Source of the DNA: a virus
Direction: 5' to 3' (one strand)
IMG/VR virus record: IMGVR_UViG_3300007513_002695
Location: 1-59,176 of that record
DNA length: 59,176 nt
Shown: piece after piece, positions 401 to 58,845 of the stretch
Numbering within the stretch: position 1 is the first letter of the stretch
Layout of the letters: the number at the start of each line of letters is the position of its first letter
Notes under the pieces: model-generated
What the model saw: only the letters and a program-made list of their open reading frames with translations
Databases searched by the model: none
What the model was told of the DNA's origin: nothing
Position numbers and translations under genes: made by a program

Positions 401-673
401 TTAATTAGATAAAATATCGCTTACGCTAGACTGAAACCTCGGATCAGAAGCAATCTGGTCAATTTTTTCCTGATTTGTGTCACAGCTATAGAGGTTACAC
501 ACGTCCTTTGCAAGCTTCCGCATTGCAGAAAGAAACACGTTTCTAGCTGTTGAATGATTCATCTTATATCCAGACGCTGTCATTTCCTCGGCAATTTCTC
601 GATATCCGATTCCAAAATCATCTGATACTGTAGCGTATCCGCCCCTTACTTTATATCCTTTCGGCATTGACAT
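401..673 (-). CDS. Small helix-turn-helix protein, sigma region 4.2-like
   Basis: This 90-residue protein carries a helix-turn-helix-like stretch (IGYREIAEEMTASGYKMNHS followed by TARNVFLSAMRKLA, about residues 22-55). In shape it resembles the region 4.2 HTH of sigma-70 factors (xxEIAxxhxhxxxTaRxhhxxAhxKL). It starts 17 bases after the stop of a sigma factor that lacks exactly this part. Seen: the HTH pattern and the adjacency. Inferred: it may supply the -35 recognition function in trans. It could equally be an independent small transcription regulator. Confidence 0.6.
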   Translation of the reverse strand: MSMPKGYKVRGGYATVSDDFGIGYREIAEEMTASGYKMNHSTARNVFLSAMRKLAKDVCNLYSCDTNQEKIDQIASDPRFQSSVSDILSN

Positions 674-689
674 AAATTACTCTCCCTAT

Positions 690-1424
690 TTAAACATTAA
701 ACGATTCGTCTTCGAGAAGGTCTTCAACTATTCCAAATCTCAAACGAAGTATCTTTTCTTCTCTTGCACTAAGTTTCTTAATACAATCTCTAATTGCTCC
801 AGCAACTCTCTCTCTATCAATCATCTCCCCTGGGTCAATTGAACTAGAATCTGCAATTGTCTCTGAAAAAAGCCTGCCGCCTGACTCCTCATTAATCGGA
901 GCATCGATTGACAACATCCTTTGCAAAGCAGCTGATTCCTGGCTAGTCTTAATCATAGACTCTGACACACCTAGCAGATCAGCAAGCTCACTACAGGTTG
1001 GTGTTTCTCCAAATTCAGATTCATACTCTTTGGATGTTCTTCTTATTTTGCTAAGCAATCCGCTTGCATGTGCTGGGATTCTCACAGTGTTGGAATGGGT
1101 TGTAAGATACCTGGTCACTGACTGCTTGATCCACCAGCATGCATAAGTAGAAAATTTAAAACCTCGACGCCAGTCAAAGCGATCAACTGCCTTCATCAGC
1201 CCTATATTAGATTCTTGAATTAAATCTGAAAGAGAGGACTTTGAACCTGGCCTGTAATACTTCTTGGCGATACTAATGGCCAACCTGAGATTTGATTCGA
1301 TCATCTGATCTCTGGCTAGAAGGTCTCCCTTTTCTATTCTTTTTGAAAGTTCAACCTCCTGCTCCTTGCTTAGAAGAGAAGTTTTTCCAACTTCAGTAAA
1401 ATAGGAATCAATGGCTGCCGACAT
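690..1424 (-). CDS. Sigma-70-family RNA polymerase sigma factor, truncated in region 4
   Basis: A 244-residue RpoD/RpoS-like sigma factor that would redirect host RNA polymerase to phage promoters. Region 1.2 is at the N-terminus (DSYFTEVGK, LLSKEQEVELSKRIEKGD). Region 2 is well preserved: NLRLAISIAKKYY, DLIQESNIGLMKAVDRFDW, then FSTYACWWIKQSVTRYL for the -10 contacts. Region 3 follows (RIPAHASGLLSKI ... SELADLLGVSE). Region 4 begins (LSAREEKILRLRFGI) but the protein stops 11 residues later, so the 4.2 recognition helix is missing. The start is ATG behind GGAGAAAAT. The next gene downstream encodes an HTH that could replace the lost part. Confidence 0.93.
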   Translation of the reverse strand: MSAAIDSYFTEVGKTSLLSKEQEVELSKRIEKGDLLARDQMIESNLRLAISIAKKYYRPGSKSSLSDLIQESNIGLMKAVDRFDWRRGFKFSTYACWWIKQSVTRYLTTHSNTVRIPAHASGLLSKIRRTSKEYESEFGETPTCSELADLLGVSESMIKTSQESAALQRMLSIDAPINEESGGRLFSETIADSSSIDPGEMIDRERVAGAIRDCIKKLSAREEKILRLRFGIVEDLLEDESFNV

Positions 1425-1498: not shown

Positions 1499-1723
1499 TT
1501 AGAATCTTCTTTGTTTATTTGCAAGATACGCTTTGTGAGCAAGCTTTCTTCTCTTTCTACTTTCAAGCTCTCTATGAATGTAGCACATTTCAATTTCAGC
1601 TGCAAATGCTCGCTTGTTTCGACCTCTCATGTTTTCAATTATTTCTTTCATGGCGTTATAAGATCTTCCCAGCTCATCATCGTGCATATAATTTAGCTTT
1701 TCACGACTGTACTTTCTCATTCT
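1499..1723 (-). CDS. Small basic protein, 74 aa
   Basis: A strongly basic protein beginning MRKYSREK with a Lys/Arg-rich end (ESRKRRKLAHKAYLANKQRRF). I chose ATG at 1723, not the longer frame to 1792, because AAGGAAG precedes it and a perfect TATAAT lies about 20 bases upstream, inside the longer reading. The charge suggests nucleic-acid or polymerase binding, but no family is recognised. Confidence 0.6.
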   Translation of the reverse strand, partial: RMRKYSREKLNYMHDDELGRSYNAMKEIIENMRGRNKRAFAAEIEMCYIHRELESRKRRKLAHKAYLANKQRRF

Positions 1724-1741
1724 ATCTTGCTTCCTTTTAAT

Positions 1742-1747
1742 ATTATA
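1742..1747 (-). promoter_or_regulatory. Sigma-70 type -10 box (TATAAT)
   Basis: A perfect TATAAT on the minus strand, directly preceded by TG, sits 18 bases before the ATG of the small basic gene. No good -35 element is visible at the expected distance, so it may be an extended -10 or activator-dependent promoter. The 1724-1954 gap otherwise holds no gene I can support. Confidence 0.45.
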
Positions 1748-1954
1748 CATCAAGATTTTTAGTTTTACATGATTTAGTGAGATTATCCTCACAAATAAAG
1801 TATATTACATTTGTTGAAAGTGTACAAGATGTTGTTGTTGATTTTTATCTCTACAAGTCTTTAGAGAGTCTTTAGAGCTTTGGTCATGGTAAATATTAAA
1901 CTATCGGTTCCTATGCAACCAGCAGGGTGTCAGATACCCCTAAGCGCAAAAAAC

Positions 1955-3008: not shown

Positions 3009-4827
<1,819 letters not shown>

Positions 4828-26607: not shown

Positions 26608-29600
26608 TTAGATGTTTATCTGTCTCATTTTATATGATGAAGTGCTACATCCCCACGATTCTGTAGAGGCAACTTCAGCAAGCCAAATCGTATAGAGCTC
26701 AGGAATAATTTTAAACTTTGTCCACACTCTAAGCCACTTACTTTCTGAGTTATTGTCACAAACTCTCATCTTATAGAAAACTTTTCCATTCTTAGTCTCC
26801 TTTTCATGAATCTCTTGTATGCAAAACCATACCACATCTTTCATTTTTCCAGAAAGTGATGTAATAGGGTCTAGATCAGACTTTCTAATCCTCTCCATAA
26901 TTCTTGGAGGAAATACCAGTGACTCATCAGCTCCGGACATTAATTCAACACTCATCCCTATTTTAGCAGACCTTGACCAGTCCTTTACTGAATCTGTCTC
27001 TACTATTAGACTTGGAACATATTCATTGACATAGCCTTGCTGCTTCATCAATTTTTTATAAGCAGTCTTTGTCATGCCATACATTCCTTTCTTTAGTTGA
27101 TCATAATTTCCAACAATAATATCATATAACTGCCTATGATTAGAAATCTCTTTGCTCTGCATCTCTGACAGGCTTGAAAAAGCCTCTACCTTGCACAAAG
27201 AATCAAAACATGTCTTATTCATCTTAGAAGGTTTCCAGCCCCCTTCTTCGTTAAAAAGAACATCAGATAAGTCCCTATACGGCCTGTTAATCATAATTTC
27301 TTCTACGGCAGCATCACCGACGCCCTTAATTGCTGTAAGGGGAGGAACAAACCCTTCTCGATCTTCACTATACACCCAGACATCGGACGATGCATTGATG
27401 TCAGGTGGGAGAATTGTATATCCTAGTGATTTAATTTCTGATATAACTTTTCCGAATTTATTAGTACCATTCTGAGTCTGAAGGCATGTTGCTAGCCATT
27501 CCTTTTCATAGTAGGAGTGAAGCCATGCAGAGTAATAAGAATCAATGGCGTAAGACACAGCATGAGACTTGTTGAAGCCATACCCAGAAAAGAATTCAAT
27601 TGTCTCATATAGCTTCTCTGCCTTGGCTTGATCCATTCCAGATACCTCGACAGCACCGCTAACAAACTTCTTTCGAAGATCAATTCTCTCCTGAACTTTC
27701 GCTGCATTTGAATCAAGAGACTTCTTAACCAAAGTTTTTCTCATTTTATCAGATGCACCCTTGTCAAAGTTGGCGAGCTTCTGCGCCAAAAGCATGAACT
27801 GCTCCTGGAATGAAATAAATCCATATGTCTCGCTTAGAATCTCCTCAATAACAGGATGATCATATTTAATCGGATTTCCATCCTCAACAGACTTCTTAGC
27901 TCTCACATACTTCCGATGAACACCGGCTGCCAGGGGTCCGGGACGATAAATTGCAGTAATAGTTGCTAGCTCTTCAATGGTTCTAGGTTTAGCAGCCATG
28001 CAAAAATTTCTTGCACCCTGTTGGGTAAACTGAAACACTTGAACAAATCTTCCTCTGTGATAGACATGCTCCCAGACCCTCTGGTCATCCAGGTTGTTAT
28101 ATCTACAATTCATGTTATCATCAAAGAATTTATGAATATCGTCAAATGTAGGTGAAGGATTTCCTTGTTTTCTTAGAATTAGCCTAATACAATCTTCAAC
28201 CATTTTAAGAGTTGTCAGCCCTAAGAAATCAAACTTAAGAAAACCATTTGGCTCAAGGTGTCTAAAATTCATTCCTTCAGACCACGGCGTCTGTAACTCT
28301 CCTCGGACCTTAATCACTGGCATATATTTTTCAAGATCAGGGCAGATTAAAACACCGCCAGCATGTCTTCCAATTGATCTTGACTCCATAAATAGATTTT
28401 GAACATGCTCTCTTACTTTGGGATATTCATCCATGAACTCAACATACTTAGATGAATACCTCATACAATCTTCATGTGTAAGGACATACGTCGATCTTTC
28501 TTCGTGATCTCCCATTGCTTTGTGCATGACATCTTTTTCTAAAGTATTTGTCATCGAATTGACTTCACTAAAGTCAATCCCATAAAACTTTGAAACGTCT
28601 TTAATAAGAGATTTAAGCTTCAGTGTATTAAAGTTAGAAACGGGAACAACGGACTCTTCTCCAAAAAGTTGTCTTGAGGCATCGATTAATACATCCCTGT
28701 CTCCTGCATCAGTATCAATATCAGGCCACCCAGCCTTTGTTCGGTGGAGAAATCTTTCCCACAAGAGGCCGTATTTAATTGGATCTGTAGTCGTAATCCC
28801 CAGGAGATAATTTACCAAAGACCCGGCGCCAGATCCTCGACCTGGTCCGATAATAGTTTCCTTAGACGCAAGATCAAATACCTTTGTCATAGTCAAAAAG
28901 TAATTTTCAAACCCAAGGTATTTAATATCTTCAAGCTCCATTTTAGTTCTTTCAACATATTCTTGTTTTACATGTAGTCCCTCATCTATCAGTGATTGCC
29001 TGACTCTTTTTACAAGTTGATTAAAAGCAGAATTACCAGGTTCATCAAATGTTGGAAGCTTAGCCTCTTCATCAAACCAAACCTCATCACACTGATCCCA
29101 CGCAATATCGTGTGTCCTTTCAATAGCATCGCAAATTAATTGATCTTTACCTTGATAAAAGTCATAATCTGGAACGTGCTTTTTATATTCTTCCCACATT
29201 TGCTCTGCATTCTTGGGATAAAGTTCACACTTTAAATCTTCAAATGCAGGAAGTGAGGGCATGTCATCACCTCTTGCGCCCATTCTCCCGAGCTTTCGAT
29301 AAAGCTCACGAGCTTCCCACATGTCACGACTATAATAATGACTATCAGCAGTTGCAACAAGCGGAATCCCGGTTTTTTCATGCAGTGAGATAAGATGCTT
29401 ATTCGTCTTATGCTGCATCGATAGAGAATTAAACTGAATCTCAAGATTAAAGTTCTTCTCACCAACAGCATCTACGAATCTATCAGACATGTTTTCAAGA
29501 TCTCTAAGGATTTCTACATTAGATTTTCCAAGAGCCTCTCCCCTTGCGATCAAAGAAGCAGGATAGCCCCCGATACACGCTGTGCTTACAATCAATCCTT

Positions 29601-30174
29601 CTCCGTGAAGATTGAGCATATTGTAGTCAATTCTTGGAAACCTATAAAACCCGTCGGTATAAGACTTTTTAACTAGTGTAAAAAGATTCTGCAAGCCCTT
29701 CTGATTCTTGGCAAAAACTACAAGATGATAGCGTCGCTTCCAGTCGTTTTTTTCAAAGTCTGCCTTGGTCTCGTCTTCATCTTCAATTACAAGCCCACCG
29801 GAGATTTCATCCTCAGAATTAATATCTGTAGATTCCCTCGCCTTTTTCTCACTGCGAGCAGCGCGAACTTCTTCTCTATGTTTTTCATAAGAAATCCTCC
29901 ACTCAGAAAGCGAGGGAACAAAATAAAACTCTACACCGTAAAGCTGTCTATATTTTCTACCCTGCTTTTTAAGCTTTTTTGCATATGTATGCGCGTGTGC
30001 AAGACCGTTTCCATTTCCATGATCTGTTAAAGCCCAGGCATCCATCCCGTTGGATAGAACAAAATCAATATGTTGATTCGGATACCCCAAACCATCATAC
30101 GGAGATCCCGTCCCGCAATGTGCGTGCAACCCAACAAATCTTGACGGAATGATTAGCTTCCCATTTTTTGACAT
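26608..30174 (-). CDS. dnaE: DNA polymerase III alpha subunit (DnaE)
   Basis: 1188 residues, bacterial-type replicative polymerase. The PHP domain begins GLHAHCGTGSP (H17, H19) with LTDHGNGNG at 49-57. Residues 105-142 form an acidic charged insert. The C-family catalytic core has GPGRGSGAGSLVNY (443-456) and WPDIDTD (483-489), where D485 and D487 bind metal. Fingers and helix-hairpin-helix regions follow (SGYGFNKSHAVSYA, AIKGVGDAAVEEI). The C-terminus includes an OB-like part but is shorter than in E. coli. No beta-clamp or clamp-loader gene is in this window. Confidence 0.97.
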   Translation of the reverse strand: MSKNGKLIIPSRFVGLHAHCGTGSPYDGLGYPNQHIDFVLSNGMDAWALTDHGNGNGLAHAHTYAKKLKKQGRKYRQLYGVEFYFVPSLSEWRISYEKHREEVRAARSEKKARESTDINSEDEISGGLVIEDEDETKADFEKNDWKRRYHLVVFAKNQKGLQNLFTLVKKSYTDGFYRFPRIDYNMLNLHGEGLIVSTACIGGYPASLIARGEALGKSNVEILRDLENMSDRFVDAVGEKNFNLEIQFNSLSMQHKTNKHLISLHEKTGIPLVATADSHYYSRDMWEARELYRKLGRMGARGDDMPSLPAFEDLKCELYPKNAEQMWEEYKKHVPDYDFYQGKDQLICDAIERTHDIAWDQCDEVWFDEEAKLPTFDEPGNSAFNQLVKRVRQSLIDEGLHVKQEYVERTKMELEDIKYLGFENYFLTMTKVFDLASKETIIGPGRGSGAGSLVNYLLGITTTDPIKYGLLWERFLHRTKAGWPDIDTDAGDRDVLIDASRQLFGEESVVPVSNFNTLKLKSLIKDVSKFYGIDFSEVNSMTNTLEKDVMHKAMGDHEERSTYVLTHEDCMRYSSKYVEFMDEYPKVREHVQNLFMESRSIGRHAGGVLICPDLEKYMPVIKVRGELQTPWSEGMNFRHLEPNGFLKFDFLGLTTLKMVEDCIRLILRKQGNPSPTFDDIHKFFDDNMNCRYNNLDDQRVWEHVYHRGRFVQVFQFTQQGARNFCMAAKPRTIEELATITAIYRPGPLAAGVHRKYVRAKKSVEDGNPIKYDHPVIEEILSETYGFISFQEQFMLLAQKLANFDKGASDKMRKTLVKKSLDSNAAKVQERIDLRKKFVSGAVEVSGMDQAKAEKLYETIEFFSGYGFNKSHAVSYAIDSYYSAWLHSYYEKEWLATCLQTQNGTNKFGKVISEIKSLGYTILPPDINASSDVWVYSEDREGFVPPLTAIKGVGDAAVEEIMINRPYRDLSDVLFNEEGGWKPSKMNKTCFDSLCKVEAFSSLSEMQSKEISNHRQLYDIIVGNYDQLKKGMYGMTKTAYKKLMKQQGYVNEYVPSLIVETDSVKDWSRSAKIGMSVELMSGADESLVFPPRIMERIRKSDLDPITSLSGKMKDVVWFCIQEIHEKETKNGKVFYKMRVCDNNSESKWLRVWTKFKIIPELYTIWLAEVASTESWGCSTSSYKMRQINI

Positions 30175-30193
30175 ATCTTTATCCTCTATGAGA

Positions 30194-30199
30194 ATTATA
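30194..30199 (-). promoter_or_regulatory. Sigma-70 type -10 box upstream of dnaE
   Basis: A perfect TATAAT on the minus strand, 20 bases before the dnaE start, followed by AGAGGATAAAG as RBS. The -35 region at 16-18 bases is poor (TGTAAA-like). It suggests a promoter that resets transcription for dnaE. Confidence 0.5.
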
Positions 30200-30227
30200 C
30201 TATATAAAATTCACGTTTACACGAAGA

Positions 30228-32401: not shown

Positions 32402-33376
32402 TTAATCTTCCTTGTATGATAACTCTAGAAGCCTTATCTCATCTAGAGTCTTATTCCAGTATTGTCTAAACTTGGTATTACCATCCTGCTCTTCTTCAGG
32501 CGGATTGATTCCGTTTAAGTCATATCGATGGGCCTGATAGATTGTATCATTGGGGTGATATTCAATATGATTATCACTGTCTGAGTCAGGCCAATAGAGG
32601 TTTGTTCCTGTCCCAGCCCTGACGTTCTTAATATAGTGCCATGCAGGGCTTGCGAGAGTATTTGTTCCAATAACAGCACTGGCCTCTGGAAGAACTTTAA
32701 TAATAGCGTGGGCCATCTTTGCTGCAATTAAGTTATCAACTGTGGGTTGAATTTGCTTATCAGATCTCTGCTTAACAAACCCGATAATATCTTTTAGATT
32801 AAATCGACCGTAATAAAAAGTTGATAGACATTTTGGAAGGATAGTTCTTGCATCCATCATAGAAATCTGCTTGGTATCGACCATGTCTGCGTAAAGCTGC
32901 TTAGCATCCTCAACGTGTCGTCGCCAGCGGCGGTAGAGCTCTGGGCTGTTCTCGACAGCACTTGGGACAAGGCAAGGCTCGTGATGAAGGAATCTATCAC
33001 CAGTGCACTGAGCGGCCCATGAACCTGCACGATGTCGAATGAGATGTGTAACAGTCTGAAGATCTATACCTGCAAACTTAAACGTAAAGCTAAAGATCTC
33101 CATCGGAGTGGGCAATGCCCTAAAGCAAAGGACATCTTCAAGATTCTCACTAAGCTCTGCCTGTGGGACACCTGTTGGATCTGTGACCTCTGGGGTGTCT
33201 GCCCAAGTTGCCTTAACGTATCTCCACGCAACGTCTCTCATTTGCTCAGCTGTGGGATGATCAACAAGCTCAACCTGTAATGCATCGAGATCATTGAGAA
33301 ATTCAGTCGTGGGTTCTTCATCAAACCTAAGGGACATAGGAAGATTAACGGGTTCTAAGTTTTTATTTTGTGGCAA
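32402..33376 (-). CDS. thyX: FAD-dependent thymidylate synthase (ThyX), divergent
   Basis: 324 residues, starting with TTG behind AAGGAG. It makes dTMP from dUMP using FAD and folate. The signature is HLIRHRAGSWAAQCTGDRFL (111-130): the RHR (114-116) and Ser119 are kept, but the usual NExSxRY end is altered. ARTILPKCL and FNLKDIIGFVKQRSDKQIQP correspond to the second conserved block (ARxxLP, NxxxxxxFxxxRxxxxAQ). It is longer than typical ThyX (about 220), with extra N- and C-terminal parts. Activity is likely but not certain. Confidence 0.87.
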   Translation of the reverse strand: MPQNKNLEPVNLPMSLRFDEEPTTEFLNDLDALQVELVDHPTAEQMRDVAWRYVKATWADTPEVTDPTGVPQAELSENLEDVLCFRALPTPMEIFSFTFKFAGIDLQTVTHLIRHRAGSWAAQCTGDRFLHHEPCLVPSAVENSPELYRRWRRHVEDAKQLYADMVDTKQISMMDARTILPKCLSTFYYGRFNLKDIIGFVKQRSDKQIQPTVDNLIAAKMAHAIIKVLPEASAVIGTNTLASPAWHYIKNVRAGTGTNLYWPDSDSDNHIEYHPNDTIYQAHRYDLNGINPPEEEQDGNTKFRQYWNKTLDEIRLLELSYKED

Positions 33377-34319
33377 TTTGAGTCTCCTTAAGATTGCGTA
33401 TTAGATTATAGACCAGTCTTGGATCTTTGTATAGTGTAACTTTTGAAATATTTTTTAATTCTTGGTTATAGCTTTTTACTGGAGAGAGGACTTCAACGCT
33501 GTGCTTGGCATATTCAGAAGCGTGCTTTGCTGAATCATCAATCGCGCAAACAACCCGATCTTCATCATAAAAATCCCTTTGAACAAGCCATCTAAACTTT
33601 TCAGGAGAAAAATCTAGATGGTGAAATTTTACACCGGCTTGTGATATCCAGTGAAAAGTATCATGCAAGCATGTGATATTATCTTTCGGTCTAGCTGTCA
33701 ATATTTGAATCCAAAACCCATCATCATAAAGCTTGTTAATAACATCGATCATCTCTCTATCGGGTCTAATGCTTCTGAGGCCGCCTGCTAGAATGAATTC
33801 TTGAAAAACACCCTCGGGTAAAAGTCCGGCTTCCTTTACTTCTTTTGTACTATAATACTCTGTAGAATTAGGGTCAGTAAAAACCCCCTTCTCATCTCTT
33901 AGCCAATCTGTAAAGTCCTCCCTAAAACAATTCAGAACATCGTCCATGTCAACTATAAGAACAGGCTGACCATTCCAAACGTTCTTTTCCATCTCATATC
34001 GTGTATGAAGATAGAGATCCTTGTTCCAAAAAGCATTTATAAAATCTTCTGTATCAAATCCCCACATATTTAATGTCGCAAGAAGGTACCTGAAAGTATC
34101 CACAGACTTATATAAAATCCTCTCTCTGTCAACCTCTCTCTTGACAAGCCTGTGGTCTTTAAAGTTAACAGAATTTGCAAGGTTTGTAACCTCGGCATGC
34201 AAAGCCAGGGCAAAAGACTTTGTCATCTCTTCACGGTCTTGATCAGAAAGATTCTCATTATTAAAAAATAAAGAAGAAAATTCTTTCTGTCGCTGAAACA
34301 TCTCGTCGATTATAGGCAA
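33363..34319 (-). CDS. Fusion of all-alpha NTP pyrophosphatase-like and HAD phosphatase domains
   Basis: 318 residues, starting at a TTG behind AAGGAG. Residues 1-112 resemble dimeric dUTPase/MazG-type all-alpha pyrophosphatases (MFQRQKEFSSLFF, LHAEVTNLANSVNF, YKSVDTFRYLLATLNMWGF, AFWNKDLYLHTRY), although the usual metal-binding EExxE set is weak. Residues 118-318 are a HAD phosphatase: VLIVDMDDVLN (D124, D126), IQILTARP and CAIDDS. Together they could take dUTP or a modified dNTP to the nucleoside. The paralogous single-domain gene lies directly upstream. Confidence 0.78.
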   Translation of the reverse strand: MPIIDEMFQRQKEFSSLFFNNENLSDQDREEMTKSFALALHAEVTNLANSVNFKDHRLVKREVDRERILYKSVDTFRYLLATLNMWGFDTEDFINAFWNKDLYLHTRYEMEKNVWNGQPVLIVDMDDVLNCFREDFTDWLRDEKGVFTDPNSTEYYSTKEVKEAGLLPEGVFQEFILAGGLRSIRPDREMIDVINKLYDDGFWIQILTARPKDNITCLHDTFHWISQAGVKFHHLDFSPEKFRWLVQRDFYDEDRVVCAIDDSAKHASEYAKHSVEVLSPVKSYNQELKNISKVTLYKDPRLVYNLIRNLKETQIATK

Positions 34320-34372
34320 TTTGATCTCCTTTCCATATTAAATTATAAAACATCTTTAAATGATTTTACAAT

Positions 34373-34750
34373 TTAATATCCTGATCGGACTCTCTCCCTT
34401 ATAACCCTATCTTTCTTTTCATAGGCGTCAAATAATTCTTCAGAAGAAACCCCGACGAGAACTAAAACAGATAAAAAATAATTAAAGGCATCAACTATTT
34501 CCTCTAGAAACTCTTCTCTATTAAACTCTGTTACCTCTGTTAGCCTATGTGGTTTCCAGTTTTTTAGATGCTGCAATGCTTCAAACATTTCCTCAACCCC
34601 TCGGAGCGCCATATCTCTAATATGCTGCTGCGATTCTTTGTCACCCAAATCCACGGGCCACGATGGTCCGATATCTGATTTTTTTTGCTTCAAGGTCTTC
34701 ATAAAGCTCTCCCTCAGGAAGAACATTGAATCAAGCCTGTCTTTACTCAT
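34373..34750 (-). CDS. Dimeric dUTPase/MazG-like all-alpha NTP pyrophosphatase
   Basis: 125 residues. RLDSMFFLRESFM, WPVDLGDKESQQHIRD, GVEEMFEALQHLKNW and EFLEEIVDAFNYFLSVLVLVG carry the helical EExxE...ExxD metal-site pattern. It likely hydrolyses dUTP or a similar dNTP, preventing uracil incorporation and feeding dUMP to ThyX. Its ATG overlaps the stop of the preceding gene. Confidence 0.85.
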   Translation of the reverse strand: MSKDRLDSMFFLRESFMKTLKQKKSDIGPSWPVDLGDKESQQHIRDMALRGVEEMFEALQHLKNWKPHRLTEVTEFNREEFLEEIVDAFNYFLSVLVLVGVSSEELFDAYEKKDRVIRERVRSGY

Positions 34751-38598: not shown

Positions 38599-38638
38599 GA
38601 AAATATTATAATATCAAATCAAAAGGTTTACACGATTA

Positions 38639-40061: not shown

Positions 40062-40096
40062 TGCTACCTCCTTCGGCTATCCAGCCTTGCAATAAA

Positions 40097-40124
40097 ATTA
40101 TACAATAGTTGTTCAAAATGTACA
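40097..40124 (-). promoter_or_regulatory. Sigma-70 type promoter upstream of the secreted His-rich gene
   Basis: TGTACA (40119-40124), 16-base spacer, TATAAT (40097-40102) on the minus strand, directly downstream of a candidate terminator. It marks the start of the 40061-36496 transcription unit. Confidence 0.6.
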
Positions 40125-40127
40125 CAT

Positions 40128-58062: not shown

Positions 58063-58845
58063 CTATTCATCTATTAGATCGGCAAATGCATCATCAAGAG
58101 ATTTATACTTTTGTCCTTCTTGCGCAGAAGAGCTTCCCTGAGTCTTGGGTGCACTACTAGAGGGCGCACTATTCGACTCGCCCTGGTCAAAAGATCCGTT
58201 GATCCAATCATTCACGATCTTTGAAAGCTCATCATATGACTTACATTCATACATTGCAGAGACATCAGGGATATTTTCTACCCATTCATTCGTCTTGTCA
58301 GAAGAAGTCGACAAGGGGGTTTGTCTACCTCTGGGGAGGACTTCAGTTGTTGTCCACTTCTTTCCAGGTTGCTTTGAGCAGCTAACCTTAATGTCTCTTC
58401 CTGTAGCAGGATCAGTAATATCACCGTAATCTTCATCAAGCATGATGTTCAGCAAAGACTGGTACACCATCTTTCCAAATCCCCAGATCTGAACACCCTT
58501 GTCTTCTTCTCCTCGGACAATTACAGGTGCATAGGTTCGCATCTTAGGGTAGAGCTTCTTGGCAAGCTCATAAGATTCCTTGGTCCCTTCATCCCTTAGC
58601 GTGTTAATAAGCTCTTGAATAGGATCTGGGTTATTAAATTGGTACGGTGCCAAGAGACCCGGATTGTTTCCAATATTGTAATAAAACCAAAGCTCCTTAA
58701 AAGGTTGCCCGTCGTTATCAGAGAACGATAGTAGGCGGACAGTATAGTCTTCGCCCTCCTTAGGTCTCCAGTTTTTTGTTTGTCTGCGGTTATTTCCGCT
58801 AAGTTGGTTTAGCTTGCGACGAATCGCTTCAAAGTCAACTGCCAT
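58063..58845 (-). CDS. gp32-type single-stranded DNA-binding protein
   Basis: 260 residues. A basic N-terminus (FEAIRRKLNQLSGNNRRQTK), the OB-fold core (YTVRLLSFSDN, LWFYYNIGNNPGLLAPYQF, MVYQSLLNIMLDEDYGDITD, ATGRDIKV) and an acidic C-terminal tail ending SLDDAFADLIDE, linked by a Ser/Pro/Gln region. This matches T4 gp32 layout: cooperativity domain, DNA-binding core, and protein-recruiting acidic tail. It coats ssDNA and coordinates helicase, recombinase and polymerase. It has its own promoter and terminator. Confidence 0.93.
   Translation of the reverse strand: MAVDFEAIRRKLNQLSGNNRRQTKNWRPKEGEDYTVRLLSFSDNDGQPFKELWFYYNIGNNPGLLAPYQFNNPDPIQELINTLRDEGTKESYELAKKLYPKMRTYAPVIVRGEEDKGVQIWGFGKMVYQSLLNIMLDEDYGDITDPATGRDIKVSCSKQPGKKWTTTEVLPRGRQTPLSTSSDKTNEWVENIPDVSAMYECKSYDELSKIVNDWINGSFDQGESNSAPSSSAPKTQGSSSAQEGQKYKSLDDAFADLIDE

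Follow-up and report, generated by a model that had tools for sequence, protein, structure and literature searches.

A likely two-polypeptide sigma factor, cut inside domain 4, in uncultured T4-like phages

The window analyzed here, a 59,176-base linear virus record (IMG/VR IMGVR_UViG_3300007513_002695), encodes a sigma-70 family factor that stops inside region 4 and, directly after it, a small HTH protein. This arrangement raises the question of whether the two genes jointly specify a single sigma factor. The sigma gene (690..1424, minus strand; 244 amino acids) comprises regions 1.2, 2, 3 and 4.1 and lacks region 4.2. The HTH gene (401..673, minus strand; 90 amino acids) is proposed to supply region 4.2 in trans, based on its conserved partnership with the sigma gene and on AF2 modeling of a pseudo-fusion from relative L060 (see below). 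The initial annotation had given the positions and lengths of both ORFs correctly and had recognized a sigma factor with regions 1.2, 2 and 3 that ends inside region 4; Pfam analysis and all 45 close relatives bore this out. Its claim of a 17-base gap failed: 16 bases (674..689, minus strand, by sequence) separate the sigma stop from the HTH start codon, and the two frames differ by one. Its central idea of a sigma factor made in two pieces, the second of them similar to region 4.2, was supported. We consider it likely, at a probability near 0.75, that the two genes make one sigma factor in two polypeptides; that these bind one another and RNA polymerase is so far only a prediction.

In the 244-residue protein, the Pfam profiles for regions 1.2, 2 and 3 are matched above cut-off and essentially over their full length (E values of 8e-12, 4e-19 and 1e-9, respectively); the region 4 profile is matched at positions 1-20 of 50 only. 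Alignments to sigma factors of solved structure in the PDB stop at residue 232-234, at an RFGI motif. A complete region 4 that includes the region 4.2 HTH in one chain is present neither in this protein nor in any of its 45 full-length relatives. The region 2.3 residues FSTYAxWW and the equivalent of Q437 are conserved in the large piece, which fits a TATAAT-type -10 element. A search for a second sigma in two nearly whole split-sigma genomes found none.

Scanning IMG/VR with the window sigma returned 47 relatives, among them one full-length sigma (L046, 32% identity) and one fragment (L047); the other 45 (L001-L045) were counted as full-length close relatives. All 45 end a short way past the RFGI motif, no more than about 60 residues from it, with acidic tails of variable length, and all 45 have the HTH gene directly downstream, the gene ends often overlapping. 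This count includes L027, whose HTH was overlooked by the script yet is encoded in its DNA. An independent scan with an HTH profile identified 251 relatives (candidate viral stretches), and a truncated sigma was found upstream of the HTH in each of the 80 loci examined (the best 80 of the 251). In a third clade, mostly GC-richer, one small gene separates sigma and HTH. No natural sigma-HTH fusion was seen among the loci examined (45 sigma relatives and 80 HTH loci). Between the two genes the offset varies, with -49 bases at one extreme and +489 at the other, and a shared frame is seen in only 14 of 78 distinct pairs, so the arrangement cannot be put down to a sequencing error or to conserved read-through. 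The initial annotation had called for a check of the reads for a frameshift, a possibility ruled out because dozens of diverged contigs share the split. The conserved truncation with an HTH partner is thus far beyond chance and no artefact. As to the gene lying between sigma and HTH in the third clade (L104, 3328-3980; L131, 3785-4000), it is short and shows a possible membrane segment when inspected by eye.

The HTH protein is not readily recognized by its sequence. Searches of Pfam, PHROGs and PDB sequences gave nothing significant for the window HTH or for representatives of clades 2 and 3, and tblastn with three clade representatives found no relative in 50,697 phage records. The Pfam Sigma70_r4 and r4_2 profiles gave a best E value of 0.02 against the HTH family, below cut-off and in 2 of 29 members. 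HHalign placed the HTH in register on region 4.2 with weak statistics (P 0.06-0.08), pairing YREIAE with TLEEVG and MNHSTARN with VTRERIRQ. Sequence similarity to region 4.2 is marginal. In an alignment of 70 HTH sequences, R44, F80 and Q81 are invariant and M38, N39, H40 and N45 are each at least 90% conserved. Several of these positions fall in the recognition helix of the window protein (approximately residues 40-61, KMNHSTARNVFLSAMRKLA), and in the HHalign register we take H40, S41, R44 and N45 to lie at sigma-70 R584, E585, R588 and Q589, which contact the -35 element. AF2 modeling of the window HTH alone yielded confident helices at residues 24-33, 40-61, 68-75 and 78-89. A structure search with this model listed no sigma match (best Z 4.3), a result that does not exclude a relation to region 4.

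The chain submitted to AF2 was built from relative L060, in which both genes are in frame; it comprised the region 4.1 part and the HTH, with stop codons read as Ser, and its alignment held 113 rows, mostly unpaired. The pLDDT exceeded 90 in both pieces, reaching 95 or more, and the pTM was 0.72 despite some 45 disordered linker residues. All 50 rows listed in the VIA alignments were sigma structures, and the alignments cover both pieces. Best matches included AlgU (Z 9.8, 1.4 A over 73 residues), region 4 of SigmaE with -35 DNA (Z 9.0, 1.3 A over 69 of 69 residues) and region 4 of T. aquaticus SigA. The model thus predicts, for this relative and without binding data, that the small HTH packs on the C-terminal helices of the sigma at the position of region 4.2, forming one domain from two chains; the initial annotation had named a small HTH that fails to pack on the sigma C-terminus as a refutation, and on this point its idea is upheld at the level of prediction only. 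The support is limited: AF2 knows sigma domains, joining the chains favors contact, and there was no matched control with an unrelated HTH. Moreover, Z scores of 8-10 are inconclusive by themselves for helical folds.

A working model can be drawn from these data. Judging from the sequence, the large piece would bind core RNA polymerase through regions 1.2, 2 and 3 and would recognize and melt the -10 element; it also contains region 4.1, the opening half of domain 4, and its obligate neighbor is the small piece. The small piece is predicted to dock on the region 4.1 helices, supplying region 4.2 and completing domain 4. The recognition helix would then contact -35 DNA, with the joined domain seated on the beta flap of the host polymerase, a placement that is predicted without a model of the RNA polymerase complex. 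We infer that the pair would redirect the host polymerase to one class of phage promoters. One could speculate that, with -35 reading assigned to a protein of its own, the polymerase could be switched between -35-dependent and -35-independent modes.

Precedents for divided sigma factors differ from this one in where the cut falls. Phage T4 gp55 and gp33 have been termed a split sigma (PMC2988020). They resemble the present pair in that the phages are T4-like, gp55 recognizes the -10 and gp33 occupies the beta flap site used by sigma domain 4. Here, unlike in T4, regions 1.2, 3 and 4.1 remain on the large piece and the cut lies inside domain 4. Furthermore, gp33 does not recognize DNA and a -35 is absent from T4 late promoters (PMC2988020), whereas the small piece retains a recognition helix of the region 4.2 type. 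The likeness to gp55/gp33 drawn in the initial annotation needs one correction: in contrast to gp33, the HTH still has the helix with which region 4.2 contacts DNA, and promoters with a distinct -35 box occur in these phages. No gp55 homologue was detected in the window or in the two nearly whole genomes (phmmer with a single distant query, HTVC008M gp55). In the SigO-RsoA pair of Bacillus subtilis (MacLellan 2009), domains 4 and 2 are on different proteins (PMC8103513). As in our case, sigma functions are shared by two proteins encoded together, but the SigO-RsoA cut falls between domains, whereas here one chain carries domains 2 and 3 and half of domain 4, with only the remainder of domain 4 on the other. 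SPO1 gp34 is a late sigma (PMC9429907), and SPO1 gp33/gp34 represent a phage late sigma working with a second small phage protein. The pair studied here is alike in combining a sigma with a small partner; its cut is not known to fall at an equivalent place. Finally, the predicted joined domain superposes across both pieces on sigma-70/ECF region 4 bound to -35 DNA (PDB 2h27, 1ku7); unlike those single polypeptides, it consists of two and has about five extra residues in the HTH turn. No phage sigma cut inside domain 4 was found in the open-access literature searched (subscription journals were not covered), and on that basis the arrangement appears new.

Which promoters might the pair read? 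In 630 intergenic sequences around split-sigma operons, the coding strand is enriched for GTGTAAA, GTGCAAA and TATAAT. GTG[TC]AA is followed by TA[TA]AAT at the canonical 17-base spacing in 38 cases, against 1 on the antisense strand and 0 in shuffles; TTGACA shows no such 17-base pairing in the same sequences and is not enriched. A promoter matrix matched 118 of the 630 sequences in sense and 10 in antisense orientation, a partly circular result since the matrix was trained on the same regions. In whole records, the exact GTGYAA-N17-TATAAT pattern occurs 234 times in 60 split-sigma records (reversed pattern, 3) and only 4 times in 31 records without a detected HTH. The hosts of these 31 may differ, and absence of the HTH is there the outcome of an empty search, weak when taken alone, although the same alignment found the HTH in other records. 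In 62 of 78 loci, a matrix match of at least 13 bits is found within the 700 bp that precede the sigma gene. The fourth base of the -35 covaries with HTH residues 41 and 43, a correlation confounded by descent.

Six matrix matches above 15 bits are found in the window, all on the coding strand. One (1739..1772, minus strand; 20.0 bits), of the form ATGTAAA ... TATAAT, lies upstream of the sigma operon; between it and the sigma gene the ORF list shows a small ORF (1499..1720, minus strand; 73 amino acids from the ATG at 1720) with no Pfam match. The sequence GTGTAAAC-N16-TATAAT occurs both directly upstream of the DNA polymerase gene (promoter at 30191..30224, minus strand, 21.7 bits; gene at 26608-30174, PHROG 405, E 3e-226) and upstream of a 146-amino-acid ORF (38602..38635, minus strand; 22.8 bits). 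GTGTACA-N16-TATAAT precedes a 107-amino-acid ORF (40094..40127, minus strand; 20.0 bits), and TTGTAAA-N17-TATAAT (34339..34373, minus strand; 15.8 bits) a dUTPase/nucleotidase-like gene (33363-34319) whose weak Pfam matches, dUTPase_2 and NT5C, are both below cut-offs. Promoters of this class precede early-type genes (RNA ligase, endonuclease, DNA polymerase, the sigma operon itself) and not capsid genes. Elsewhere in the window, TTGACA-N17-TAAATA, a possible host-type early promoter, is seen in the 58725-58845 region (minus strand) upstream of a gp32-like gene (58063-58845).

The association between motif and HTH is not absolute. Among 76 records chosen by the motif alone, 10 have the HTH, and at least three others (G013, G027 and G055, with no HTH) have a DNA polymerase 54-61% identical to that of the window; they are probably parts of phages of the same type. 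G002 (L451-L456; IMGVR_UViG_3300025141_014429) carries about 35 GTGYAA/TATAAT promoters, most of them in a 15-kb array of small genes; it gave no HTH match and contains two sigma fragments of 154-160 amino acids that likewise end at region 4.1. The motif as an exclusive mark of the HTH is weakened by this record. Conversely, several split-sigma records (for example G121, G125 and G127, and G087 and G158 in clade 3) have no match to the exact motif.

A second motif is found in the structural (morphogenesis) regions of split-sigma phages, where ATATTTA occurs 40 times in sense and 5 times in antisense orientation with no clear -35. A GTGYAA-type -35 upstream of ATATTTA was considered and not retained, being weak in 30 cases and unsupported in 137. 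Two gp55-type phages have TAAATA-type motifs in place of ATATTTA. The form ATA[TGC]TTAT is a likely late promoter element of the split-sigma lineage. It was observed, in strand-specific fashion, upstream of structural genes in G080, G122, G082, G132, G044 and G085 (L373-L450).

Which class the pair reads is not settled, and the data allow both readings. GTGYAA-N17-TATAAT is the best candidate because it is the only class with a conserved -35 box, matching the conserved recognition helix; even so, we would not put the odds of its being the target above those of a coin toss. The same promoter before the sigma operon counts against it, since the operon's first transcription must then occur without the phage sigma. 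That the pair reads the late ATANTTA class is a weaker proposition, which we consider less likely than not, and that it reads neither class is improbable. A bolder reading, in which a domain 4 built from two polypeptides serves a dedicated GTGYAA promoter class and -35 recognition becomes a separate, possibly regulated subunit, can be offered only tentatively, the odds being a little against it.

The main rival to the GTGYAA reading holds that the pair is a late sigma comparable to T4 gp55 and gp33, the large piece reading the -10-like ATANTTA and the small piece capping the beta flap without a conserved -35, while the host sigma-70 holoenzyme reads the GTGYAA early promoters. In its favor are the 40:5 strand bias of ATATTTA in morphogenesis regions, where no clear -35 is seen and from which gp55-type phages differ; the failure to find a gp55 homologue; the position of GTGYAA promoters before early-type genes and the sigma operon; the presence of this class in G002 without an HTH match; and the lack of enrichment for TTGACA promoters, which leaves some other sequence to serve as the early promoter. 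In T4, too, early promoters carry a -35 other than TTGACA. Against it, a recognition helix so highly conserved calls for an explanation, and a conserved -35 is missing from the late class; in addition, GTGYAA/TATAAT is nearly absent from the 31 records without HTH, with the reservation about hosts made above. On balance we regard this rival as less likely than not.

Two further explanations concern the gene pair itself. The HTH could be an independent regulator that shares an operon by chance with a sigma working without region 4.2. Its lack of a sequence family tie to sigma factors, the weak HHalign support and the small gene between sigma and HTH in one clade speak for this view; the strict co-occurrence of sigma and HTH in all loci examined speaks against it, as does the finding that the HTH modeled alone lacks a complete known DNA-binding fold whereas the joined pieces reproduce region 4 at 1.3-1.4 A. 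We regard it as unlikely. The remaining possibility, that the split results from a sequencing or assembly frameshift or from programmed frameshifting or read-through, is suggested by the proximity of the two frames in the window. It is all but excluded by dozens of independent contigs that show the split, with the variable offsets and few in-frame pairs described above, and by the intervening gene in some relatives. We retain the two-polypeptide sigma factor as the preferred reading.

Known split sigmas either divide whole domains or swap domain 4 for a protein that does not read DNA. A cut inside one small domain, kept across diverse phages, constitutes a natural test of the uncoupling of -10 and -35 recognition. 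If the reading is true, an unannotated HTH family (251 candidate viral stretches) gains a family name and a testable role, and a promoter motif becomes available for annotating these uncultured phages. The lineage is one of widespread, mostly marine, uncultured T4-like phages, with distant T4-like terminase, portal, protease, capsid and sheath genes. Three matches were found in bacterial genome contigs, all of them metagenome bins, so no reliable host could be assigned. In two clades the operon has a third gene after the HTH (for example, L008 6081-6422 and L030 5647-5991), encoding a small protein with an N-terminal YxxFxxRR and a lysine-rich tail. Lastly, a GroEL-like chaperonin, identified by reading the translation by eye, is encoded a few genes away from the sigma operon in the window (3009-4634, minus strand).
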